From Pseudomonadota bacterium (GTDB taxonomy: Bacteria > Pseudomonadota > Gammaproteobacteria > Burkholderiales > Methylophilaceae): DNA of 42,133 nucleotides. Below the pieces are notes generated by a model, which was not told where the DNA came from, made no database searches, and saw only the letters and a program-made list of their open reading frames with translations. The position numbers were made by a program, and so were the translations under genes. Shown piece by piece: positions 245 through 29,564 of the stretch (its first letter is position 1; the number at the start of each line of letters is the position of its first letter). The stretch lies in assembly GCA_029569495.1 (NCBI GenBank), contig JAKQTB010000001.1, positions 1-42,133 of the forward strand, read 5' to 3'.

Positions 245-2467
245 ATGAACACTACTACACGACCAGCAAACAAAGCGTTAAATTGGCTACTTGGTATTCA
301 ACCCAAGTTAACCGGTTTAAAAAACTTCGTAGGATTCAACCAGTTTGGTGATGAGTACCAACAATCAGTATTTAGAATATTGATTATTAGCTTAATCATC
401 TCGTCCATTTTTTTTCAATATGACGAAGTTGCAACATCAACGATGCTAATCATGGCGTGGTTTACCATTTTTAGCATTTCAATCATCTTCAATATTAGAA
501 AAAACCCAGCCCAAAGTAGAAAAAGACAGCTTTTTGCAATGTTCAACGATGTTGCTGGCACCTCTATTTCACTCTACGTTACCAATGATATTGGTGGTGT
601 TTTTGTTGGTGTGTATTTGTGGCTCATCATCGGTTATGGCTTCAGATATGGCAAAACCATGCTGATTGCTACGTTTCTGAGTAGTCTAGCTGGGTTTGTC
701 ATCTCCAGTTTAATGAGCCCATACTGGCAAACACATTTGGTTGGTTTTTATGGCTTGTTAATCACCATGATTGCTATTCCATTACACGCGTTGGCATTAC
801 TGAACAAGCTAAAAGATGCCACAAAAAAAGCTGAAGCGGCAAACAAAGCTAAGAGTGAGTTCTTATCACACATCAGTCATGAAATTCGCACCCCGCTCAA
901 TGGCATTGTCGGTGCTTGTGATTTGTTAGGGTCAGCTAACCTTAATAAAGATCACGCGATGTTATTTAACGTGATGAAGTCCTCTTCAAACATGCTGCTG
1001 GAATTAGTCAACAATGTACTTGATTTATCAAAAATCGAGAGCGGCAAAGTGATTAACAACACTGAAGATTTTTATTTACGAAATCTTGTTACCAGTACGG
1101 TCAATTTATTTGAAACACAGGCCTCGCAAAAGGGCGTTTCAATTGCTTATGAAATCAGTAAAGAGACACCGTTGCGCGTTCATGGCAACATGCTCCACAC
1201 CAAACAAGTGCTGATTAACTTGGTAGGTAACGCTGTGAAATTTACCGAGCAGGGTTCAGTGAAAATATTGGTCACAACAACGGACCAAGGCCATTCACAA
1301 GCCAACATTAAATTTGAAGTAATTGACTCAGGCACAGGCATTGCTGATGACTCATTACCGCATATTTTTGAAAGCTTTGTGCAAGCCAAAGAATCAAAAC
1401 ATAAATTAGGTGGCTCTGGCTTAGGGACGACCATTTCAAAAAATCTGGTTGAACTCATGCACGGCCAAATTGGCGTTGAAAGCACATTGGGACAAGGTTC
1501 TAACTTCTGGTTTGAGATTCCGTTTGAAAAACTCAGCAGCGGTAATTCACAAGCAGAAGGTGTTTCATCTGAGATTATTCCATTCAAAAAAACCGTCGGC
1601 AAAAAGAAAAAAAATGCTTACCGCATTTTGGTGGCAGAAGATAACGACACCAATATTTTAATCATTTCACAAATGCTAACTATGCAAAACCATACGTTTG
1701 ATATTGTGAAAAATGGTGAATTAGCACTTGATAAATTACGTGACGAAACTTACGACCTGATGATTCTAGACTGCAACATGCCCGTGATGGGCGGCTTTGA
1801 AGCACTTAAAATCTATCAAGCCATCAATATTGGTTTACCACAAATTCCTGCCATTATTTTAAGTGCTGATGCCACCAATGATACCCGAGCATTATTTGAA
1901 GGCTTGGGCGTTGCAGCTTTTCTCACTAAACCCATGCAAAGTGAGCCGCTTGCAGAGGCCATTGAAAATGCGGTAGCCAGTGCCAAGCGTGTAAAAGCGG
2001 ATGTTATTCACTATCATGAAGCAGCACTAAACAAAACAAAACCCAATGAAGTTGCTCAACCAGTGACTGAAAAAATCAACTCTCAAATTCAAATACAAAT
2101 GTTAGATGTGGACAGGTTAGAAGCCTTAGCAAATTTGGGTAAAAGCCCTAACTTTTTGCAAAATTTAGTGCAAGGCTTTATTTCTGATACCGAAAAGAAT
2201 TTTGTGCAACTGATTACGCATATTTTGAAGCGCGATTATGTCAATATCAACGATTGTGGCCATGCAATTGCTGGCAGTGCCGCCAATATTGGCGCAGATG
2301 ATTTAGCCAAAATTACCAGAACCATTAATTTGATTAAGCCAACCGATAGTGAAAACCTAGATGCGCTTTTATCAGCCGCGGTTGATAGTTATGAAAAAAC
2401 AAAATTGGAACTCACACACTATTTAGAGCAACACAATACGGGCGAAAATCTATCAAAGGCGCTTTAA
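245..2467 (+). CDS. rpfC: RpfC-like hybrid sensor histidine kinase (DSF receptor candidate)
   Basis: This is a 740-aa inner-membrane hybrid kinase, close to the length of Xanthomonas RpfC. About five hydrophobic segments occupy residues 42-187, preceded by a short N-terminal stretch (DEYQQSVFRI) that resembles the DSF-sensing N terminus of RpfC. The H-box SHEIRTPLNG follows with phospho-acceptor His212, then an ATPase domain with N, G1 (DSGTGI) and G2 (GGSGLG) boxes. A receiver domain carries Asp509 in ILDCNMPVMGG, and a C-terminal HPt domain carries His673 in GHAIAGSAA. It converges on an rpfF-like gene with a 22-bp gap, so a DSF-type sensing role is likely. A partner RpfG (HD-GYP) is not in the window. 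The domain architecture is certain; the ligand is inferred. Confidence 0.85.
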   Translation: MNTTTRPANKALNWLLGIQPKLTGLKNFVGFNQFGDEYQQSVFRILIISLIISSIFFQYDEVATSTMLIMAWFTIFSISIIFNIRKNPAQSRKRQLFAMFNDVAGTSISLYVTNDIGGVFVGVYLWLIIGYGFRYGKTMLIATFLSSLAGFVISSLMSPYWQTHLVGFYGLLITMIAIPLHALALLNKLKDATKKAEAANKAKSEFLSHISHEIRTPLNGIVGACDLLGSANLNKDHAMLFNVMKSSSNMLLELVNNVLDLSKIESGKVINNTEDFYLRNLVTSTVNLFETQASQKGVSIAYEISKETPLRVHGNMLHTKQVLINLVGNAVKFTEQGSVKILVTTTDQGHSQANIKFEVIDSGTGIADDSLPHIFESFVQAKESKHKLGGSGLGTTISKNLVELMHGQIGVESTLGQGSNFWFEIPFEKLSSGNSQAEGVSSEIIPFKKTVGKKKKNAYRILVAEDNDTNILIISQMLTMQNHTFDIVKNGELALDKLRDETYDLMILDCNMPVMGGFEALKIYQAINIGLPQIPAIILSADATNDTRALFEGLGVAAFLTKPMQSEPLAEAIENAVASAKRVKADVIHYHEAALNKTKPNEVAQPVTEKINSQIQIQMLDVDRLEALANLGKSPNFLQNLVQGFISDTEKNFVQLITHILKRDYVNINDCGHAIAGSAANIGADDLAKITRTINLIKPTDSENLDALLSAAVDSYEKTKLELTHYLEQHNTGENLSKAL

Positions 2468-2489
2468 AGCTCGCCGCCAAAATTGTGAA

Positions 2490-3428
2490 TTAGCCCGCGG
2501 TACGTTGAATGGAAACAATATTATCTGACGTGCCTGTTGCTAAATGTTGCGTGTAGTTTGGCAAATAGAGCTTCTCTTGCATCTGAATAAACCGATCCAT
2601 GATGCTAAATTCACGTTCAGAGAGTTGCAAGGCAACGTCTACCCAGAGTCGCGTAATATCCATTAACTCGTCATAAGTGATGGGGTGAACACGATTTTTG
2701 GCCTTTTGAATTGCTAAATACGCGTTTGACGAACGCTTATTCTTTTCTATCCACTTATAAACCGCCTGCTCACCCTCGCCGTCTTCCACTAATACATCTA
2801 CAATTCCCAATTCATAAGCTTGCTCAGCCGTATATTGCTTACCACTAAGAATCATTTCGTCGGCAATTTTTACACCCGCTTTTCGCATCACCAAACTGTG
2901 CGCACCCATGCCCGGAAACATATTAAACAACACTTCAGGAAAGCTAAATAAGCTTTTACGCTCGGCAATAATTACATCACTAGTCAATGCGCCTTCTAAG
3001 CCAGCGCCCAAGGCCAAACCCTGTACCAAGCTAATGTTAATAATGGGGCAATCATTAAACCGTGTCAGGCGGCTATTTAAAATATCAATGGCCTTTGTTG
3101 CATAAGCCAACAATGCTTCTTTATTCTTGTTTTTTGCTAACCCTCTGATTAACGCTAAATGACCACCCAAGTTAAACACGTTAGGGGTTAATGAAGCCGC
3201 GACAGCGTATTTGATGTTGTAAACATGATCATTTAAGTACAACACGCCACGCGTATTTTCAACTTCTTGTTGATGTTGAATAATTTCGCTAATGATTTCA
3301 CGATTAGCACAAGGCACCATATTGGGTTGATTGAAAAAAGTCCAGAGTACTTCATGACTTTGATCGTAACGGATAGACAGCTGTTTAAAATTGTTCCTTA
3401 AGCCGCAATCTTCAATTTTCATCAGCAA
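2490..3428 (-). CDS. rpfF: RpfF-like DSF synthase (crotonase fold, dehydratase/thioesterase)
   Basis: This is a 312-aa enoyl-CoA hydratase-superfamily protein. Known RpfF enzymes dehydrate 3-hydroxyacyl-ACP and release a cis-2-enoic fatty acid signal by thioesterase action, using two glutamates 20 residues apart (E141 and E161 in Xanthomonas). Here the equivalents are Glu145 in GAGLEGALTS and Glu165 in FSFPEVLFNMFPGMGA, the same spacing and motif context. It is therefore more likely an RpfF than an ordinary enoyl-CoA hydratase. It faces the rpfC-like kinase tail to tail and is divergent from an ACP/ketosynthase pair that could supply its acyl-ACP substrate. The start could also be the Met two codons downstream. 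Confidence 0.85.
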   Translation of the reverse strand: MLMKIEDCGLRNNFKQLSIRYDQSHEVLWTFFNQPNMVPCANREIISEIIQHQQEVENTRGVLYLNDHVYNIKYAVAASLTPNVFNLGGHLALIRGLAKNKNKEALLAYATKAIDILNSRLTRFNDCPIINISLVQGLALGAGLEGALTSDVIIAERKSLFSFPEVLFNMFPGMGAHSLVMRKAGVKIADEMILSGKQYTAEQAYELGIVDVLVEDGEGEQAVYKWIEKNKRSSNAYLAIQKAKNRVHPITYDELMDITRLWVDVALQLSEREFSIMDRFIQMQEKLYLPNYTQHLATGTSDNIVSIQRTAG

Positions 3429-3526
3429 ACCTTAATTTTTTATACATATTTTTGTGGAGTTTATGGCATTATAACGTTGCTTTTTAAAAACAATATAGCC
3501 TTTAAGGGTGATTCTTAGGACATTGC
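3429..3526. promoter_or_regulatory. Divergent promoter region between rpfF and the ACP/KAS pair
   Basis: A 98-bp AT-rich gap separates two divergent transcription units, so it should carry both promoters. On the minus strand a TATAAT hexamer sits at 3468-3473, but the best -35-like match (TTGTTT, 3488-3493) is only 14 bp away, so the promoter is uncertain. On the plus strand AGGA precedes the ACP start by about 8 bases. Confidence 0.4.
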
Positions 3527-3796
3527 ATGACACAACAAACAATTACAAGTGAAGACGTTAAGAATTTTTTGCAAAACTTGTTATTAGAAGAAAAAAAAAT
3601 AGACTTAAAAGGGGTAGACCTTAATACAAATTTAAAAGAATTGAATATAGATTCCTTTGGATTTTTAGAAGTTATTTTTAGTATTGAACATCATTACAAC
3701 ATTTTTTTTCCGCAAGGCATTGATAACATTAACACCCTGCAAGATGTCATTGATGTGACCTATGACCTAATACAACAAAAAGCTAAAGCAGCATAA
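3527..3796 (+). CDS. Discrete acyl carrier protein
   Basis: This is an 89-aa phosphopantetheine-binding carrier protein. The attachment serine is Ser43 in LNIDSFGFLEVIFSIE, where the usual DSL motif is DSF. It is not the housekeeping AcpP, which normally sits with fabD/fabG/fabF. The gene is notably AT-rich with runs of A and T, and is followed after 2 bp by a ketosynthase gene, implying translational coupling. Its position divergent from rpfF suggests that it carries the acyl chain used for signal synthesis, but this is an inference from position. It could instead serve another specialised lipid. Confidence 0.85.
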   Translation: MTQQTITSEDVKNFLQNLLLEEKKIDLKGVDLNTNLKELNIDSFGFLEVIFSIEHHYNIFFPQGIDNINTLQDVIDVTYDLIQQKAKAA

Positions 3797-3798
3797 CC

Positions 3799-5043
3799 AT
3801 GACCGATTTGCGCCGCGTAGTCATTACTGGCTTTGGGTTGGTTTCGCCACTTGGCAATACGGTTGAAGCGTTAAAAGAAAACATCTTCGCAGGTAAATCA
3901 GGCGTTAAGCCGTTTATGGGCGACTTTGCAGAGTTACTTAATTGCAAAGTGACCGCACAGGCTGACTTTGACCCTGCAAATCATTTTAGCAAAAAAAGTG
4001 ATTACGCCATTTTAGACCGTAATGGCCAAATGGCGCTGCATGCTAGCATTGAGGCGGTCAAGCATGCAAACCTGACGTTTAATGACGCACTGAAAAAACA
4101 GTCTGGCGTATACATTGGCACGGGCATGGGCGGGATCTTGTCTGTTGAAGATGGCTACCAAACACTCTATAAAAATGGTGAAAATCGCCTGAAGCCCTAC
4201 ACAGTGCTCATGTGCATGTACAACAGCGCGGCTTCAGCGATTGCTACACATTTTCAAGTTTCTGGGCCTAATTTAACGTTTACGACCGCGTGTTCATCTT
4301 CTGCTGTGGCCATTGGCCAAGCTTACAAAGATATTCGGCTTGGTGACATTGATGTAGCGCTGGCAGGCGGCACCGATGCAATTTTAGCTTACGCCAGCAT
4401 TAAATCATGGGAGGCGATTCGCACCCTTGCAGATGCAGACGCTGTTGACATTAGTGCTTCATGCAAGCCATTTTCTGCAGACCGGTCAGGTTTGGTGATA
4501 GGCGAAGGTGCGGCGACTTTAGTGTTAGAAGAATACGAGCATGCTAAAGCGCGTGGTGCAACGATTTATGCAGAAATCGTGGGCTATGGCGCGGCCAACG
4601 ACTACCAACATATTGCGGTTCCATCTGTTGAAGGGCAAGCGGCCACAATGGCGGCCGCCATGAAAAACTCCGGTCTGCAAACCAGAGATATTCAGTATAT
4701 TAATGCGCACGGCACAGGTACTAAATTTAACGATGAAACCGAAACCAATGCCATTAAGCAAGTGTTTGGGGAACATGCACAACGATTAGCCATCAGCTCA
4801 ACCAAATCCATGCACGGTCATTTAATGGGCGCTGCTGGCGCACTTGAAGCCATTATCACCACACTAGCTGTATACCATAACGAACTACCGCCGACCATTA
4901 ACCTTAAAAACCCTGATCCTAAATGTGACCTAGATTACGTGCCGAATGTGTCAAGAAAAGTTGAGCGGCTTGAATATGCGATGTCCAATTCATTCGCCTT
5001 TGGCGGCACGGGCGCTACATTAATTTTCAAGAAAACCAATTAG
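3799..5043 (+). CDS. Beta-ketoacyl-ACP synthase II (FabF-like), paired with the ACP
   Basis: This 414-aa thiolase-fold condensing enzyme has a complete catalytic triad: Cys165 in FTTACSSSAV, His304 in NAHGTGTKF and His339 in SMHGHLMGAAGA. The spacing agrees with E. coli FabF. It would extend an acyl chain on the adjacent ACP with malonyl-ACP. It is encoded 2 bp after the ACP in a pair that lacks fabD/fabG/fabZ, so it probably relies on the housekeeping enzymes for the other steps. Whether it makes the RpfF substrate or another product cannot be read from the sequence. Base composition is less AT-rich than that of the ACP. The gene ends 24 bp before a convergent membrane-protein gene. Confidence 0.9.
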   Translation: MTDLRRVVITGFGLVSPLGNTVEALKENIFAGKSGVKPFMGDFAELLNCKVTAQADFDPANHFSKKSDYAILDRNGQMALHASIEAVKHANLTFNDALKKQSGVYIGTGMGGILSVEDGYQTLYKNGENRLKPYTVLMCMYNSAASAIATHFQVSGPNLTFTTACSSSAVAIGQAYKDIRLGDIDVALAGGTDAILAYASIKSWEAIRTLADADAVDISASCKPFSADRSGLVIGEGAATLVLEEYEHAKARGATIYAEIVGYGAANDYQHIAVPSVEGQAATMAAAMKNSGLQTRDIQYINAHGTGTKFNDETETNAIKQVFGEHAQRLAISSTKSMHGHLMGAAGALEAIITTLAVYHNELPPTINLKNPDPKCDLDYVPNVSRKVERLEYAMSNSFAFGGTGATLIFKKTN

Positions 5044-20245: not shown

Positions 20246-21127
20246 ATGGAATATTGCCTACGCCCTCGACGATCCATGCTGTATGTGCCGGGTTGCAACC
20301 AGCATTATTTGGATCGCGCTCGCACGCTGGCTGCCGATTCGGTTATCTTGGATTTAGGTGACCCAATACTTATTGATGCAAAATTGGAGTCCAGAGACAA
20401 CGTCGTTGCCGCTGTGAAACAAGGCGGCTACGGCTCGCGAGAGGTAGTTGTGCGCGTGAATAATCTGGATTCAATTTGGGGGCACGATGACATCAAGGCC
20501 GTGGCCAATATTGGTGCCGATGCCATTTTGTTTCCTAATATCGAGTCTGCCGAGCACGTGCATACTGCGCTTGAGTTGCTTGATGCGGCCGGTGGCGGCC
20601 ACATGCCGATTATGGTGATGATTGAAAGCCCGCTGGCTGTGCTGAATGCTAAAGAAATTGCCAGCGCGTCAGACCGTATCACCTGTATTGTGATGGCAAC
20701 TTCGGATTTAATTTCTCAGCTGCATGCGCGCGTTACGCACGAGCGCTCGGCGATATTGACTTCACTTTCATTAGTTGTATTAGCAGCGCGCGCTTATGGT
20801 CGCTGCGTCATTGACGGTATCACCAGTGATTTTAAAAACATGCATTCTTTTGAATATGCTTGCCGATTAGGGCGAGACATGGGGCTGGATGGAAAGTCCC
20901 TCGTTCATCCAGCACAAATCGCTTACTGTAATGATGCCTACACGCCAAAAGCTAGCGAAGTTGCCAACGCAAGACTGATTATCAAAGCGTTACAAGAAGC
21001 CAACGAAGGCGGCTTAGGCACCGTTGTTGTTAACGACAAATTAGTTGAACAGCACCATGTAAAAGCTGCGCAACGGTTACTAAAACTGAGCGACATGATT
21101 ACAGAACTTGAAGAAGACTTTATATAA
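20246..21127 (+). CDS. CitE-like CoA-ester lyase with altered acidic motif
   Basis: This 293-aa HpcH/HpaI-family protein has CitE length. It starts RRSMLYVPG and ends its barrel with DGKSLVHPAQI, both typical of CitE. Metal ligands appear kept (Glu127 in MIESPL, Asp154 in ATSDLI), but the usual DLED motif reads DLGD at 36-39 and the usual G-x-E-D reads ATSD. It is the first gene of the plus-strand operon and abuts mesaconyl-CoA hydratase with no gap, so a role in methylmalyl-CoA or citramalyl-CoA cleavage or formation is plausible. Alternatively it may have a shifted activity or be an accessory subunit; the altered residues make catalysis uncertain. Confidence 0.8.
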   Translation: MEYCLRPRRSMLYVPGCNQHYLDRARTLAADSVILDLGDPILIDAKLESRDNVVAAVKQGGYGSREVVVRVNNLDSIWGHDDIKAVANIGADAILFPNIESAEHVHTALELLDAAGGGHMPIMVMIESPLAVLNAKEIASASDRITCIVMATSDLISQLHARVTHERSAILTSLSLVVLAARAYGRCVIDGITSDFKNMHSFEYACRLGRDMGLDGKSLVHPAQIAYCNDAYTPKASEVANARLIIKALQEANEGGLGTVVVNDKLVEQHHVKAAQRLLKLSDMITELEEDFI

Positions 21128-22207
21128 ATGACACTTTCTACCAAAATCAATGCAGGCCGTTTTTTTGAAGACTTTGTGCTGGGCGAAGTGATTTTACATG
21201 CCACGCCACGCACCATTACCGCAGGGGATGCGGCGCTTTATATCGCGCTAACTGGGTCACGCAACCCATTGCATTGCAGCGAGCCATTTGCGCAATCGTT
21301 AGGCTACAAAACCACACCGATTGATAATTTATTGGCTTTTCATATCGCTTTTGGCAAAACCGTGCCCGATATTTCCGTGAACGCGGTTGCCAATTTAGGT
21401 TATGCCGAAGCTAAATTTATTCAACCAGTGTTTGTAGGTGATACGCTGACTACAAGTAGCGAAGTCATCGGCCTGAAACAAAACTCCAACGGCAAAAATG
21501 GCGTGGTTTGGGTGCGCTCCACCACGGTTAATCAGCACAAAGTGGCTGTTATGAGCTGGGTGCGCTGGGTTATGATTCATAAAAGTGAGCATCATCAAAC
21601 CAATCTTTCTGCACCTGCGCCAGAGACGGTGATTCCAAAATTGGCGCCATTTGTCAGCGTTGAACACTTGCAGTTATCGCCTTATATGTCGGCCAAATAT
21701 TACCAAACCAACGCCACAGGCGGCGACTATTTGTGGGAAGACTATCAAATTGGTGAGCGCATCAATCATGCCGCCGGCATGACCATCAATGAGAGCGACC
21801 ACAGCTTGGCGACAAGGCTTTATCAAAACAATGCCAAATTACACTTTGACGCGCACTTGATGAAAAACTCAGCCATTGGCCAGCGTTTGGTTTATGGCGG
21901 CGTGGTAATTTCTGCTTGTCGCGCGTTGAGCTTTGATGGTTTAGAAAACGCCCTCAGCATTTTAGCCATCAACGGTGGTACGCATGCAAATCCATGCTTT
22001 GCGGGCGACACCATTTACACATTTACTGAAGTCTTGGACGCATGGCCACTGCCAAAACGTACCGATATTGGCGCATTGCGCTTGCGTATGGTGGGCATTA
22101 AAAATATGGCCGCCCATGAAATAGGCGAAATTAAAACTGAAAATGGCTATCACCCGAATGTGGTGCTAGACCTTGATTACACCGTGCATATGCCACGCAA
22201 ACATTAA
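21128..22207 (+). CDS. mch: Mesaconyl-CoA (2-methylfumaryl-CoA) hydratase, double hot-dog MaoC type
   Basis: This 359-aa protein consists of two MaoC-like hot-dog halves (about 1-155 and 195-350). The N-terminal half, with FFEDFVLGEV, HATPRTITAGDAALYIALTG, HIAFGKTVPDIS and LGYAEAKFI, closely resembles mesaconyl-CoA hydratase of the ethylmalonyl-CoA pathway in Methylobacterium and Rhodobacter. That enzyme interconverts mesaconyl-CoA and beta-methylmalyl-CoA. The second half carries YLWEDYQIGERINHAAGMTI and a fully formed second domain. It sits between two CoA-ester lyase genes and upstream of prpBCD. This supports a mesaconyl-CoA to methylmalyl-CoA to glyoxylate plus propionyl-CoA sequence. 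The direction in vivo cannot be read. Confidence 0.85.
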   Translation: MTLSTKINAGRFFEDFVLGEVILHATPRTITAGDAALYIALTGSRNPLHCSEPFAQSLGYKTTPIDNLLAFHIAFGKTVPDISVNAVANLGYAEAKFIQPVFVGDTLTTSSEVIGLKQNSNGKNGVVWVRSTTVNQHKVAVMSWVRWVMIHKSEHHQTNLSAPAPETVIPKLAPFVSVEHLQLSPYMSAKYYQTNATGGDYLWEDYQIGERINHAAGMTINESDHSLATRLYQNNAKLHFDAHLMKNSAIGQRLVYGGVVISACRALSFDGLENALSILAINGGTHANPCFAGDTIYTFTEVLDAWPLPKRTDIGALRLRMVGIKNMAAHEIGEIKTENGYHPNVVLDLDYTVHMPRKH

Positions 22208-22238
22208 TAACAAAGTATTACAGCTAAAGGAAAGCACC

Positions 22239-23228
22239 ATGGCAACCCTTGTCCACCCTTCTGAAGCACTTTTTGGCGGCGAAAAACCTTTCCCGCTCAT
22301 CCCTGCCTGCGAGCATTTTGCAGGGAGCGAAAAACTTATTTTAAAAGCGCTTTCGCTGCAAGATACTATCGGACCAGTATTTGATATTACCTGTGACTGC
22401 GAAGATGGCGCAGCTTCAGGCTTAGAACGCGAACACGCTGAGATGATTGTGCGCGTACTGAATTCAGACGCCAATCAACACAAAATGGCTGGCGCGCGTA
22501 TTCATGATTACACACACCCTGCCTGGAAGTTAGATATTGATATTTTGGTGGCAGGTGCTGGGCAAGTATTAAGCTACATCACTATTCCAAAATGCACGGA
22601 TATCGCGCAGGCTAAAGAAATGATTGCCTACATTCAAAAAGTGGCAACCTTTAGCGGCATCGCCCGCGTGATTCCTATACACATTTTAATTGAAACGCAC
22701 GGCGCCCTCTATCAAGTGCATGAAATCGCCAAGTTACCTTGGTTGCAAGTGCTTGATTTCGGTTTAATGGATTTTGTCAGCGCGCATCATGGGGCCATTC
22801 CTGCCCTTGCCATGCGTAGCCCTGGCCAATTTGAGCATCGCTTACTTGCCCGTGCCAAAACCGAAGTGGTTGCCGCGGCCCTCGCCAATGGCGTTGTACC
22901 AGCGCACAACGTGACGCTTGATTTAAAAAACGTTGAGACCACCCTAAGCGATGCCACACGCGCACGTAATGAATTTGGCTTTTTACGCATGTGGAGCATT
23001 TACCCCACGCAAATTCAAGCCATTGTGGATGCCATGAAACCTAATTACGATGAAGTGATAGATGCTGCCAATATTTTAATTGCCGCACAAGATATGGCAT
23101 GGGGGCCAATTCAATATGCGGGCGAACTTCATGACAGAGCAACCTACCGTTATTTCTGGGAAGTGTTGCAAAAGGCCAAACTCACTAATGTGACCATTCC
23201 AGACGAAGCGCAGAAAAGGTTTTTTTAA
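22239..23228 (+). CDS. HpcH/HpaI family CoA-ester lyase, 329 aa
   Basis: The start at 22239 is chosen because AAGGAAAG precedes it; an upstream Met at 22173 would overlap mch. It is the third CitE-superfamily protein of the window. It keeps the acidic motif DCEDG (53-57), the ligand glutamate in ILIETHGAL (Glu152) and the ligand aspartate in [13 protein letters not shown] (Asp178). The C terminus ([20 protein letters not shown]) is typical of a long CoA-ester lyase subgroup that, as I recall, lies near sdh/mdh genes in other beta-proteobacteria. Malyl-CoA/beta-methylmalyl-CoA lyase activity is a reasonable proposal given the adjacent hydratase. Its stop overlaps the prpB start by one base. 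Confidence 0.85.
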
Positions 23229-24115
23229 TGTCAAATTTAATCACGGCAGGCGCACGTTTTCGTGCAGCTATTGCACAAGAAAAGCCGCTACAAATTATCG
23301 GTGCAATCAACGCTTACCACGCCATGCTTGCCACCCAAACTGGCTTCAAAGCCATTTATTTATCGGGCGGCGGTGTGGCGGCTGGCTCACTCGGCTTACC
23401 TGATTTAGGTATTTCCACGCTTGAAGATGTGCTTGTGGACGTGCGACGCATCACCGATGCCGTCGATACGCCTTTATTAGTGGATATAGACACGGGTTTC
23501 GGTGGCGCTTTCAACATTGCCCGCACCATTAAAAGCGTGGCAAAAGCAGGTGCTGCCGCCGTACATATTGAAGACCAAGTATCCGCCAAACGCTGTGGTC
23601 ATCGCCCCAATAAAGCGATTGTCAGCTTAGAAGAAATGGCCGACCGTGTAAAAGCTGCTGTGGATGCAAAACCATACGATGATTTTGTGGTTATGGCGCG
23701 CACCGATGCGCTGGCTGTAGAAGGTTTGCAATCTGCCATTGCCCGCGCTTGCGCCTGTGTTGAAGCAGGGGCTGATATGATTTTTCCTGAAGCGATAACT
23801 GATTTAACCATGTATAAACAGTTTGTGGATGCAGTAAAAGTACCAGTATTAGCCAACATTACCGAATTTGGCGCAACACCGCTTTTTACTGTGGATGAGC
23901 TAGCCAGCGCCGACGTGAGCATGGTGCTGTATCCGCTTTCACCGTTTCGCGCCATGAATCAGGCCGCGCTGAATGTTTATCAGGCGGTAAAGAAAGACGG
24001 CACACAAAAAAATGTGCTCAACACCATGCAAACCCGCATGGATTTGTACGACCACTTGGGTTATCACTCTTTTGAACAAAAGCTCGATGCCTTATTTAAT
24101 CAAAACAAATCATAA
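23228..24115 (+). CDS. prpB: 2-Methylisocitrate lyase
   Basis: This 295-aa member of the isocitrate lyase/PEP mutase superfamily cleaves 2-methylisocitrate to pyruvate and succinate. The catalytic motif KRCGH is at 121-125 with Cys123, the same number as in E. coli PrpB. Other near-identical blocks are [20 protein letters not shown], the HIEDQ metal motif and [13 protein letters not shown]. Length (295 versus 296 aa) and prpC/prpD neighbours exclude ordinary isocitrate lyase (about 430 aa). Confidence 0.97.
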
Positions 24116-24130
24116 CTGAGAGGAAACTGC

Positions 24131-25285
24131 ATGTCTGATGCCGCAACCACTTTAGAACCTAAAAAGAAAAAAGGCGTGGCTTTAGCAGGTGTCGCCGCCG
24201 GAACAACAGCCATTTGCACCGTTGGCCACACCGGTAACGACCTGCATTATCGTGGCTATGACATTATTGAACTCGCCAAACACACCACGTTTGAAGAAGT
24301 TGCTTATTTGCTCATTCATGGCGCATTACCGAACCAAGCGGAACTTACTGCCTACCATGCGCGTTTAAAAAAACTGCGCGGCATTCCTCAGGCCTTAAAA
24401 GAAGTGCTGGAGCGTATTCCAAAAACAGCACACCCAATGGACGTGATGCGCACAGGTTGCTCTGTGCTCGGCACACTCGAACCTGAAACGGCTGACCGCA
24501 ATATTCATGATGCCAAAAAGCTGGGAGACCGCTTAATTGCCTGCTTTGGTTCCATTTTGATTTATTGGTATCAGTTTAGCCACAATCACAAACGCATTGA
24601 TGTGGAAAGTGATGAAGATTCAATCGCCGCGCACTTTTTGCATTTATTGCACGGCAAAAAACCTTCTGACTTACACATTGCCGCGATGAACACTTCGCTC
24701 GTCTTGTACGCAGAGCATGAATTTAATGCTTCTACGTTTACCGCACGTGTGATTGCTGGCACTTTATCAGATATGTATTCCTGTATCACGGGTGCCATTG
24801 GTGCATTGCGTGGACCAAAACATGGCGGTGCAAATGAGGCGGCAATGGAAATCATTGAGCGTTATAAAACAGCAGATGAAGCCGAAGCTGACATCATGGC
24901 ACGTATGGCTCGCAAAGAAATTATCATTGGTTTTGGCCATCCTGTGTACACTATTGCCGACCCTAGAAACGAATCCATCAAAGCCGTTAGCCGCAAGTTA
25001 AGTGAAGATAACGGCAATATGACGCTATTTGATGTTTCTGCACGCATTGAAGAAACCATGTGGCGTGAAAAGAAAATGTTCCCAAATCTCGATTGGTACA
25101 GCGCCTCCAGCTACCACATGATGGGCATCCCGACAGGCATGTTCACACCGATTTTTGTCATTTCACGCACCACAGGCTGGGTTGCGCACGTGATTGAACA
25201 ACGCATTGATAACAAAATCATTCGTCCAAATGCCGAATATACGGGGCCAGACAACCGTCCCTATGTTCCACTCGCTCAACGTTAA
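24131..25285 (+). CDS. prpC: 2-Methylcitrate synthase
   Basis: This is a 384-aa citrate-synthase-family protein of the short PrpC type (E. coli PrpC 389 aa). It condenses propionyl-CoA with oxaloacetate. Motifs include [61 protein letters not shown] with a catalytic His, [10 protein letters not shown]-like [15 protein letters not shown], and [10 protein letters not shown] with the catalytic Asp region. A good ribosome site (AGAGGAAA) lies ahead of the ATG. The gene order prpB-prpC-prpD supports PrpC over housekeeping citrate synthase, though some activity with acetyl-CoA is common in this family. Confidence 0.97.
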
Positions 25286-25302
25286 TTTTAAGAAAGCTTT
25301 TC

Positions 25303-26763
25303 ATGTCTAGTCATATTTCTAATGTACGCCCCGCGCCAGACCAAGTGATTGTCGATATTGCCAACTACGTGGCCGATTATCAAATCAACTCGGATGAAGC
25401 CTTTGATACCGCTCGCAATTGCTTGATGGATACGCTGGGCTGTGGTTTTGAAGCCCTAGATTACCCAGCTTGTACTAAGTTGCTAGGCCCAGTAATTGCT
25501 GGAACTGTGGTACCCAATGGCGCAAAAGTGCCCGGCACTTCATATCAATTAGACCCGATCTTAGCTGCCTTTAACATCGGCGCGATGATACGCTGGTTAG
25601 ACTTTAACGATACCTGGCTTGCCGCAGAATGGGGTCATCCATCAGATAATTTAGGCGGCATATTAGCGGTGGCTGATTATATTTCACGCAAAAATGTGAG
25701 TGAAGGTAAAGCCCCGTTAACCATTAAAGACGTGCTCACCGCCATGATTAAAGCGCATGAAATACAAGGCGTATTAGCGCTAGAAAATAGCTTTAACCGC
25801 GTGGGGTTAGACCATGTAATTTTAGTCAAAATCGCCTCAACGGCCGTGGTGACTAAGCTACTTGGTGGTGATAAAGAAGACATTATCAACGCCGTTTCTA
25901 ACGCGTTTGTGGACGGCCAAAGCTTGCGCACTTACCGCCATTCACCTAATACTGGCTCACGTAAATCATGGGCAGCGGGCGATGCCACTTCACGCGCAGT
26001 ACGCCTAGCCTGGATGACTTTGCAAGGTGAAATGGGCTATCCATCTGCACTCACAGCAAAAACCTGGGGCTTCTACGATGTGTTGTTTAAAGGCAATGCG
26101 TTTAAATTTCAACGCCCATACGGTAGCTATGTGATGGAACAAGTCTTGTTCAAAATCTCATTCCCAGCTGAATTTCACGCACAAACCGCGGTGGAATGCG
26201 CAATTCAGCTCAATGCGCAAGTCGGCAGCAAATTGCAGACGATGGAACAAATCGCGGCGATTGATAAAATTGTGATTACAACACACGAATCAGCCATCCG
26301 CATTATTGATAAAACGGGTCCATTAGATAACCCAGCAGACCGCGACCACTGTATTCAGTACATGGCTGCCATTGGATTACTAAAAGGCAATTTAACTGCG
26401 CAAGATTACGAAGATGCTGTAGCGGCTGACCCTCGTATAGATGCAATTCGCGCAAAAATGGTTTGTGTAGAAAAAGCTGAATACACGCGTGATTACCTAG
26501 ACCCAGAAAAACGCTCGATTGCTAACGCGATTCAAGTGTTCTTCAAAGACGGTTCAACTTCAGAAAACATTGCAGTGGAGTATCCAATTGGCCACCGTCG
26601 TCGTCGCGGTCAAGGCATTCCAGAACTCGTTAAAAAATTCAAAGTGAATTTAGCGCGTCGCTTTGATGCTAAAAAACAGGATGAGATTTTGGCTTTGTGT
26701 TTAGATCAAAATAAATTAGAAGAAACTTCTGTGAATACGTTTGTAGATATGTTATCTGCTTAA
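25303..26763 (+). CDS. prpD: 2-Methylcitrate dehydratase
   Basis: This 486-aa MmgE/PrpD-family protein (E. coli PrpD 483 aa) dehydrates 2-methylcitrate to 2-methylaconitate, which AcnB then rehydrates. Recognisable blocks are [52 protein letters not shown] and the C-terminal [16 protein letters not shown]. It is the last gene of the six-gene plus-strand operon and is followed by palindromic repeat copy D. A degenerate second copy of its final ~170 bp lies at 29841-30042. Confidence 0.97.
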
Positions 26764-27902: not shown

Positions 27903-29564
27903 TCACTTGTCACTTAGCTTGCGTCTTTTTGAGCGGAAGCTAAGTAAGCTTGAACGTAAGGCAGGAAAGCCAACCAATGTACCCGCAATCATTAACAGCA
28001 AGCCCCCGCCACCCAACATATTTTCACTACCCAGTTGGCTCGCATCGCTTACTTTAACCTCTTTACCAGCTTTAGCGGCATCTGCTGCTTCACGTAAACG
28101 CGTGTCTTCATCCATAATTTCAGCATAACCACGCATTAATTCAGACCAGCCTTCGCTATAAGTATAGCCACCTGGATTCACATGGAAAATTCCCTTGTAA
28201 TGTTTAATGACATCATGTTCCCACATGTCAGCGTAAAGTCGCTCTATCCGGCTTGGGTTGTTGCCCTTTGCCCAAAATAGCTGGAAGAATCCACCAGCTG
28301 CATCTTTTTCGGGTGCAGGTGGGGCTGGGCGATTAGTTTTTTGCCCAACCAGCAAGCCGTCTTCATATAGCTTATTCACTACCTTCTTGGCACTTTGCTC
28401 AACATTTAAACCTTGAATAGTACCTTTATCCGCGGTATCTAAGTAAGCTTTGGCAAAGCTTTCTGAGTGACACAAAGTACAGGTTTGCACCCACGCCTTT
28501 TTACGATCTTCAAACCAAGGGTGAGAAAGATTATTGGCAATTTCAGGCGTAGGGTTGAAACCCCAGCGTACTTTACGCACTAGATTGTGTGAATACTCGC
28601 CTTTATATTCAAAATGGCAAGTCTGGCAAGTTGGTGCGGTATAACCACCTTTGCCAACAGCTTCCTTCAAAGGCACTTCAAAATTCCATTTGGTCTTGCC
28701 CATCGTCAAGTATTGAGTACCATGCTTGGATAACATGTAGTTTTCAAACTCATTATGATCCACACCATTGTGACAGGTTGCACAAGCCTCTGGTTGTCTA
28801 GCCTCTGCCGCAGAAAAAGTATGGCGAGTATGGCAACCATCACATTTATTTTGTTGGTAATGGCAAGAATCGCAACCTTGTGCTACTTCACGCTCAGGCA
28901 TAGCAGCCCACGTTGCAGTTTCAACATTCGCCTCCCAATCAACGGCATGGGAAGGGTGTCCTTTAGCCCACTGCTTTTGAGGCCACTCTTGCTCTTTTTC
29001 AGACTCAGCTTCAGCAAATTCGTTTAAGTGGCAAGTACCACAAGATACGCGATCAGGCATGACTAGCGCTTTAGCATGGTCAATCTTTGTAACGCCTACT
29101 CCACCATGACAATCAATACAACCAACTTGCTTGAGTGGCTCACCTTTTTTCAACAAATTTAACTTGCGTAAATTATTTTCAACTTCCGTTATTTTTTGTT
29201 TCTTGTAAGCACGAGCGTCACTATCAGGTAATTTACGAATAGCTTCTAAATCACTATGTGAGCTACTTTTCCATGCGTGAAAAGCACCTGGCGTTGTTGT
29301 TTGGTGGCACCCCACACAATCAGACTGCGTAAATTCACCTTTTATCGTTTGGGGAGGCGAGTAAAAATCTTTTGGATTCCAGTATTTTTGAATCGGGATA
29401 GGCTCCCAAAATTTGCCGTGGCTACCTTTTCCAGGATGCGTATCGTAATAATTTTTCTTAATCTTCTCAAAGTCATGCTCTACAGCCCAAGCGGTATTGA
29501 TAAGACCCAATCCAATTAAGCTAGCTAAAAATGTAGTTAAAATCCACCCTATTAGATTTTTCAT
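27903..29564 (-). CDS. haoA: Octaheme hydroxylamine-oxidoreductase-like cytochrome c, membrane-anchored
   Basis: This 553-aa exported protein has a signal peptide ending AWA (residue ~27) and exactly eight CxxCH heme motifs: CVGCH, CIDCH, CGTCH, CDSCH, CDGCH, CATCH, CQTCH and CTLCH. The block HYKGIFHVNPGGYTYSEGW near residues 455-473 matches the HAO region that holds the tyrosine crosslinked to the P460 heme; Tyr467 or Tyr469 is the candidate. That suggests an oxidising HAO rather than a tyrosine-free reductive type. A hydrophobic C-terminal segment plus basic tail (residues ~517-550) would anchor it to the inner membrane. A strong AAGGGG ribosome site precedes the ATG. No amo, c554 or cM552 genes adjoin. 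Confidence 0.88.
   Translation of the reverse strand: MKNLIGWILTTFLASLIGLGLINTAWAVEHDFEKIKKNYYDTHPGKGSHGKFWEPIPIQKYWNPKDFYSPPQTIKGEFTQSDCVGCHQTTTPGAFHAWKSSSHSDLEAIRKLPDSDARAYKKQKITEVENNLRKLNLLKKGEPLKQVGCIDCHGGVGVTKIDHAKALVMPDRVSCGTCHLNEFAEAESEKEQEWPQKQWAKGHPSHAVDWEANVETATWAAMPEREVAQGCDSCHYQQNKCDGCHTRHTFSAAEARQPEACATCHNGVDHNEFENYMLSKHGTQYLTMGKTKWNFEVPLKEAVGKGGYTAPTCQTCHFEYKGEYSHNLVRKVRWGFNPTPEIANNLSHPWFEDRKKAWVQTCTLCHSESFAKAYLDTADKGTIQGLNVEQSAKKVVNKLYEDGLLVGQKTNRPAPPAPEKDAAGGFFQLFWAKGNNPSRIERLYADMWEHDVIKHYKGIFHVNPGGYTYSEGWSELMRGYAEIMDEDTRLREAADAAKAGKEVKVSDASQLGSENMLGGGGLLLMIAGTLVGFPALRSSLLSFRSKRRKLSDK

Follow-up and report, generated by a model that had tools for sequence, protein, structure and literature searches.

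The closest described systems to the locus analysed here are the Rpf/DSF (diffusible signal factor) systems of xanthomonads, built from RpfF, RpfC and RpfG with RpfB, the rpfF-rpfG-rpfC clusters known in Methylobacillus, Methylophaga, Thiobacillus and Leptospirillum (PMC4504480, in the part available), and DspI of Pseudomonas aeruginosa, an RpfF homologue that the same part of that paper places among fatty-acid metabolism genes. The in vivo substrates of RpfF are there presumed to be intermediates of fatty acid biosynthesis (PMC4504480), and the accessible portion of a second paper has Xanthomonas campestris drawing its precursors from the fatty acid pathway, the lone-gene reductase FabG2 contributing to DSF production without being required for it (PMC5941067). 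Here we describe a module at positions 245–5,043 of a 42,133-nucleotide stretch that is one entire contig of its source genome (JAKQTB010000001.1 of GCA_029569495.1, Methylophilaceae; hereafter, the window), in which genes for an acyl carrier protein (ACP) and a ketoacyl-ACP synthase (KAS) lie next to rpfF. RpfF and RpfC are ordinary for Methylophilaceae and the ACP–KAS pair is the unusual part: no earlier description of such a pair at rpfF was found in the titles and abstract openings searched, and without it the module is not new, since rpfF-rpfG-rpfC clusters were already on record in the consulted portion of PMC4504480. The best explanation, which we hold to be likely, is a DSF-type module for cell–cell signalling in which RpfF is served by a dedicated acyl supply, because ACP and KAS genes are linked to rpfF in separate lineages, the KAS is under selection, and a separate acpP-fabF is present elsewhere in the source genome.

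The module consists of four genes, all open frames. An rpfC-like hybrid sensor kinase gene (245..2467, plus strand; 740 aa, recognised by its open reading frame, Pfam domains and five candidate membrane segments) converges on an rpfF-like DSF synthase gene of the crotonase family (2490..3428, minus strand; 312 aa from a TTG start, with an alternative ATG two codons inside it; supported by the reading frame, models and a Protein Data Bank (PDB) alignment). Diverging from rpfF are acp (3527..3796, plus strand; 89 aa, Pfam PP-binding), which encodes the second ACP of the genome, and, after a gap of 2 bp, kas (3799..5043, plus strand; 414 aa), which encodes a condensing enzyme that is KAS II-like (FabF-like) by NCBIfam and PRK models and has an intact active site; these positions bear out the convergent and divergent arrangement proposed in an initial annotation of the window. 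The 98 bp between the divergent starts (3429..3526), compared in an alignment of six loci, contain TTATGGCATTATA, which is common to five of the six and whose reverse complement contains TATAAT. Downstream of kas, in the window and in the close relative G140, follow a DUF2914 gene, a gene for a 147-aa protein and then acnB, on the minus strand in the window.

Like the xanthomonad system, the locus has converging genes for an RpfF-like synthase and an RpfC-like hybrid kinase and, in G140, a gene with receiver (REC) and HD-GYP domains upstream of rpfC. It differs in that the window has no rpfB beside rpfF, with the divergent ACP–KAS pair in place; the initial annotation's statement that Xanthomonas-type loci lack such a pair fits the gene order set out in the available part of PMC4504480. 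Methylobacillus-type clusters share the core genes, and the Methylobacillus locus L130 also has a convergent rpfC, but neither L130 nor the five genus-g14 loci (L070, L074, L076–L078) have an ACP or KAS gene within 4 kb of their rpfF. DspI, set beside the module by description alone, is likewise an RpfF homologue encoded among fatty-acid metabolism genes but differs in lying within a cluster of fatty-acid metabolism enzymes, its sensor being unknown (PMC4504480, same part).

The RpfF query matched 50 of 187 genomes of the family, which is one of methylotrophs, in keeping with the probable methylotrophy suggested at the outset. One match, a weak 30% fragment in G042, was left aside, and neighbourhoods were taken from the 48 remaining relatives, giving 50 regions in total; all of these except L079, which is cut off, have an rpfC-like gene converging on rpfF. 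The window's RpfF type, defined by at least 56% identity to the query or by the fragment in G139, is found in ten genomes, the window's own included. ACP and KAS genes lie within 4 kb at seven of the nine judgeable rpfF genes of this type, the tenth (G139) being cut off: the pair is divergent from rpfF in six genomes of two genera (the window's, G140, G079, G070, G067 and G072), while in G040 the two genes stay close to rpfF but are separated, the ACP gene adjoining rpfF and the KAS gene lying past rpfC. G071, where rpfF was not found, has a KAS gene of the same clade at a contig end beside acnB. The idea that a distant rpfF had replaced the gene in situ at the acnB locus, considered from identities of 42–47% versus at least 56%, was dropped, as the RpfF tree (115 of 130 rows, 2 short and 13 duplicate rows being left out) makes the window clade sister to the genus-g15 genes there. 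By this tree, the window clade and the g15 genes at the acnB locus are placed as two sister lineages and the other Methylophilaceae rpfF type as a distant one. Two rpfF-rpfC systems of different types occur together in one genome, G142 (L037, L040).

Between the window and G140, kas has a dN of 0.075, a dS of 1.7–2.2 and a dN/dS of about 0.035–0.045 (one pairwise estimate, with high dS), close to the values for acnB (dN 0.072–0.078, dS 2.2–2.6); dN/dS was used for kas and acnB only, rpfF and rpfC giving no usable dS and acp a dS of 3.1. The KAS is thus under purifying selection and, because the arrangement recurs in relatives and the KAS dN/dS is near that of acnB, the position of the pair next to rpfF is more than a chance neighbourhood. 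An alternative interpretation is that the pair landed once by chance in the ancestor of the subclade and has been kept as a neutral neighbour or a spare elongation pair, and a single origin within the family is indeed likely given the one KAS clade; we nevertheless consider such hitch-hiking improbable in view of the purifying selection, albeit from that single estimate, the retention of the pair in two genera and, in split form, in G040, and the presence of linkage in other RpfF lineages with which the window's does not make up a single clade.

The association also occurs outside the family. Among 80 loci in the genome_contigs set, eight have ACP and KAS genes near rpfF, four from the family (L081–L084, also in the family count) and four from outside it (L118, L120, L132 and L135), which are metagenome-assembled genome loci of Gammaproteobacteria or unnamed Proteobacteria. 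A class sample comprised 369 genomes; RpfF matched 68 of them at E 1e-25, the window's own genome included, and 10 of the other 67 have a linked gene: ACP and KAS in G268, G266, G546, G526, G399, G500 and G277, with rpfC and a CMAS-type gene also present at the G266 and G546 loci, and ACP only in G436, G201 and G287, G436 having a gamma-type KAS elsewhere in its genome. Across a wider set of 178 distinct rpfF genes, counted after leaving out 20 duplicate and 8 short rpfF frames, 21 are linked (18 to ACP and KAS, three to ACP only: L294, L323 and L335), and 14 of the 21 lie outside the family, where Pfam confirms ten ACPs and five KASs. The ACP and KAS profiles of this neighbour scan were built partly from linked loci, and 26 of the 30 class-sample loci L264–L293 had 1.5 kb flanks, in which more distant pairs (as in L321) would be missed.

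On the RpfF tree the linkage label changes five times, and at least two changes are forced by well-supported branches. Approximately unbiased (AU) tests rejected a single clade of all linked rpfF genes (p-AU 4.4e-6) and a clade uniting the window group with the gamma group (p-AU 4.6e-7), these groups having been named after the first trees were seen; the trees tested comprised 63 of the 178 rows (21 linked, 12 chosen and 30 random), and several RpfF branches are long. The KASs at rpfF belong to three separate lineages. Plasmid-borne RpfFs were matched in 16 records, and in the four examined no annotated ACP or KAS neighbour was seen, the gene tables being incomplete. One such plasmid, NZ_CP060058.1 of a faecal Escherichia coli, carries an RpfF-like crotonase gene (L366, 6806–7639; 32% identity, 66% query coverage) in one run with genes for ABC/FtsX transport and lipoprotein sorting.

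The ACP passes the Pfam PP-binding threshold (25.2 versus 20.8 bits), has its carrier serine in NIDSFGF and is 20% identical to the acpP-like protein adjoining fabF in the same genome. The ACPs of the window, G140, G079 and G072 share DSFGFLE(V/I)IFSIEH around this serine, where the genome's other ACP has DSLDTVELVMALEE, and the altered helix II after the serine is consistent with private partners. The KAS retains the active-site residues Cys165, His304 and Lys336 and the second histidine; it scores 461 bits against TIGR03150, under the equivalog cut-off of 493.75 for housekeeping FabF, and 449 bits against PRK07314, over the cut-off of 387. Ten other FabF-like proteins form a group (100/100) with the genome's own acpP-linked FabF, and the window KAS falls outside it; the KASs at rpfF stand apart from that clade. 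Compared with this FabF, the pocket of the KAS has Met for Ile at position 108 and Trp for Phe at position 202, in what we take to be the applicable numbering; PDB entries 4ls5 and 4ls6 show an Ile/Phe difference at the FabF 108 position, a change that presumably limits chain length.

Methylophilaceae also have ACP–KAS pairs away from rpfF, in an aminotransferase cluster (L216 5158–13031 and L225 5690–9434) that encodes a phosphatase, a class-III aminotransferase, an alpha/beta hydrolase, the ACP, the KAS and EamA-like and FemAB-like proteins, together with a DegT aminotransferase or, at times, an arginase-like protein. The sister KASs of this cluster are 64–69% identical and likewise have an ACP gene in front, but the cluster has neither rpfF nor rpfC. 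Because the KASs at rpfF in the family make up a single clade (8 rows, 100/100) that sits among those of the cluster (tree of 44 of 48 rows; the wider KAS tree used a chosen 44 rows), the pair at rpfF was, judging from these trees, probably recruited from the aminotransferase cluster. An orthologue of the aminotransferase (at least 87% identity) is present in G039, G142 and G158 and was found in none of G000, G140, G139, G079, G070, G067, G072, G071 and G040 (best match 32% or none), five of these nine genomes being drafts of 76–91% completeness. Since these nine, which have the pair or the window's rpfF type, are without the cluster aminotransferase, it is unlikely that the pair at rpfF serves that cluster in them, and the complementary pattern in two genomes, G039 and G142, where the pair lies in the cluster and none adjoins rpfF, is suggestive. 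The family has a second such setting (L238 2958–7758, L239 and L240), with an FAD-dependent oxidoreductase gene and, by eye, methyltransferase-like and type-III-synthase-like genes.

The presence of sister pairs in a cluster of aminotransferase, alpha/beta hydrolase and FemAB-like genes with no rpfF nearby favours a different interpretation, that the pair makes some other lipid or small metabolite under quorum control while RpfF uses the general fatty acid pool. The scarcity of pairs within 4 kb of most scanned rpfF genes and the further enzymes at some linked loci (methyltransferase, acyltransferase, radical SAM) point the same way, but the window and G140 have no further biosynthetic gene between the pair and acnB, and linkage recurs in separate RpfF lineages, sometimes as ACP alone; we therefore consider this interpretation unlikely, although it deserves weight.

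Several observations weigh against a dedicated acyl supply. No neighbouring pair was seen at 132 of the 178 distinct rpfF genes, a further 25 lying too near a contig end to be judged. The initial annotation had named lack of co-occurrence of the pair with rpfF in relatives as a refuting outcome; co-occurrence held in the window's subclade and failed in the remainder of the family, where neither gene was seen within 4 kb of any of 40 other rpfF genes (0/40; among them, L059 and L072 have less than 0.4 kb upstream and the gene of G080 is in two pieces). Even within the subclade, the rpfF genes of G039 and G142-C23 are without an adjoining pair (with 1.8 kb upstream only in G142-C23). The ACP of G040 is without the DSFGF motif, and the RpfF and KAS trees conflict on this genome, whose RpfF branch is long. 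Because the KASs of the aminotransferase cluster have the same Met and Trp pocket residues, these do not mark the rpfF pair. A consensus scan recognised no sigma-70-type promoter in the rpfF/acp intergenic region, and divergent genes need not share a pathway.

The synthase itself could be a metabolic crotonase (hydratase or isomerase). It scores 182.5 bits against the NCBIfam RpfF equivalog NF053515, below the cut-off of 550, and of its four top PDB chains, two carry an enoyl-CoA hydratase/crotonase label. However, a 262-residue control stretch of one of these, 5fus (labelled putative enoyl-CoA hydratase; presumably the Burkholderia synthase BCAM0581), which differs from the RpfF-labelled 6dgn at two residues in the printed stretch, is equally sub-cut-off at 183.1 bits while scoring 394.3 against PRK08788, and a Methylobacillus-type protein, at 242.3 bits, is likewise under 550. 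Judged by these scores, the NF053515 cut-off marks a narrower lineage and leaves out at least one RpfF of equal score, and we file the window protein as RpfF-like rather than as an NF053515 equivalog. It scores 317.7 bits against PRK08788 (cut-off 177), with the best hydratase model at only 72, and its four best PDB sequences (5fus, 7zq7, 6dgn and 3m6m, the last also labelled RpfF) match at E 1e-40 to 1e-42 and 142–149 bits, the next being a hydratase at E 5e-16 and 62 bits. Glu145 and Glu165, which we take to be the catalytic glutamates, are 20 apart, as first annotated, and align with glutamates of 5fus and 6dgn. An AlphaFold model from a nine-row alignment had a mean pLDDT of 48, too poor for structure search. 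With the protein falling outside ordinary hydratases by models and PDB matches, and an rpfC-like gene converging on its own, we regard a metabolic crotonase as very improbable.

RpfC has the complete kinase architecture initially proposed, with phosphorelay residues His212 (HisKA), Asp509 (REC) and His673 (Hpt) in place; HisKA, HATPase_c and REC are above their Pfam cut-offs and Hpt slightly under (22.3 versus 24.6 bits). A hydropathy scan gave five candidate membrane segments at residues 41–186, and the sensor residues 1–190 match those of RpfC homologues encoded next to rpfF at the Methylobacillus glycogenes locus L130 (31%, 1e-14) and others. Upstream of rpfC, G140 has the REC–HD-GYP gene (REC and HD by Pfam) and G139, whose rpfF fragment is 92% identical to the window's, has an HD-domain tail. 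The contig begins 244 bp before rpfC. Three HD-GYP-type proteins were found in the source genome, all DUF3391-HD without REC; no REC–HD-GYP protein was found elsewhere in the assembly, with no match spanning both domains of the G140 RpfG. Because the contig starts just before rpfC, close relatives have an RpfG-type gene or its tail upstream and no REC–HD-GYP gene was found elsewhere in the assembly, rpfG of the source genome plausibly lies in an assembly gap.

Under the dedicated-supply explanation, general fatty acid synthesis would supply an acyl primer, which the KAS would condense, on the private ACP, with malonyl units, and a housekeeping reductase, the module itself having no reductase gene, would yield 3-hydroxyacyl-ACP. 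RpfF would dehydrate this to a cis-2-enoyl thioester and release the free acid, as suggested by characterised RpfF homologues (PMC4504480, in the part available). RpfC would sense the acid and pass phosphate via REC and Hpt to an RpfG-type HD-GYP protein. The ACP–KAS pair would in this way determine which chain type the signal has and keep signal flux apart from membrane-lipid flux.

Some linked loci carry additional enzymes. Among rpfF genes whose two flanks each reach 4 kb or more, a CFAS-like gene is present inside 6 kb at 6 of 12 that are linked and at 3 of 88 that are not; two more linked loci with shorter flanks also have one. Seven of these eight linked matches were in the training set of the CFAS-like profile, and rows are related. 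Of the eight, six were tested with Pfam CMAS and all six were confirmed (L032, L033, L120, L132, L321 and L330). Four loci of class Gammaproteobacteria combine rpfF, ACP, KAS and a CMAS-type methyltransferase: L120 (418–7145), which adds an acyltransferase (PF01553) and a GGDEF-EAL protein, L132 (1855–8843), and L321 (4971–10900) and L330 (5028–10900), both with an RpfC-like kinase. In G268, a single-contig genome, L295 (1934–11123) has rpfF, KAS, ACP and a radical SAM gene and, by eye, an RpfG-like REC protein and two RpfC-like proteins. A CFAS-like methyltransferase gene also lies beside rpfC in four g15 loci of the window's RpfF type (L032 12309–13181, L034 5280–6167, L035 13442–14317 and L033 11842–12714), and the neighbour scan saw none at the same acnB site in the other RpfF type (L041–L053). 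No orthologue was found in the source genome at E 1e-40, and we treat the methyltransferase association as a lead to branched or cyclopropane signals in some lineages, not in the source genome.

Elsewhere in the window, positions 27903–29564 encode a multi-haem cytochrome (PF13447, 502 bits). At 20246–26763 lies a series of genes for HpcH/HpaI lyases, MaoC/mesaconyl-CoA hydratase-like, PEP-mutase/isocitrate-lyase family, citrate synthase family and MmgE/PrpD proteins, a run that appears to resemble a methylcitrate-type pathway.

The presumption that general fatty acid synthesis is the source of DSF signals raises the question of how a cell fixes which acid is sent. We tentatively propose, as a possibility on the doubtful side, a convergent DSF subtype across Gamma- and Betaproteobacteria in which a private ACP and KAS, at times with a CFAS-like or radical-SAM enzyme, would make cis-2-enoic signals peculiar to each lineage, possibly methyl-branched or cyclopropanated, separately from membrane lipid synthesis, so that gain of a new ACP–KAS pair would amount to a switch of dialect. 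A dedicated ACP–KAS pair at the synthase, recurring in several separate lineages, would in itself answer how the acid is chosen and make dialects predictable from gene order, and the locus described here offers a small testable system in methylotrophs.

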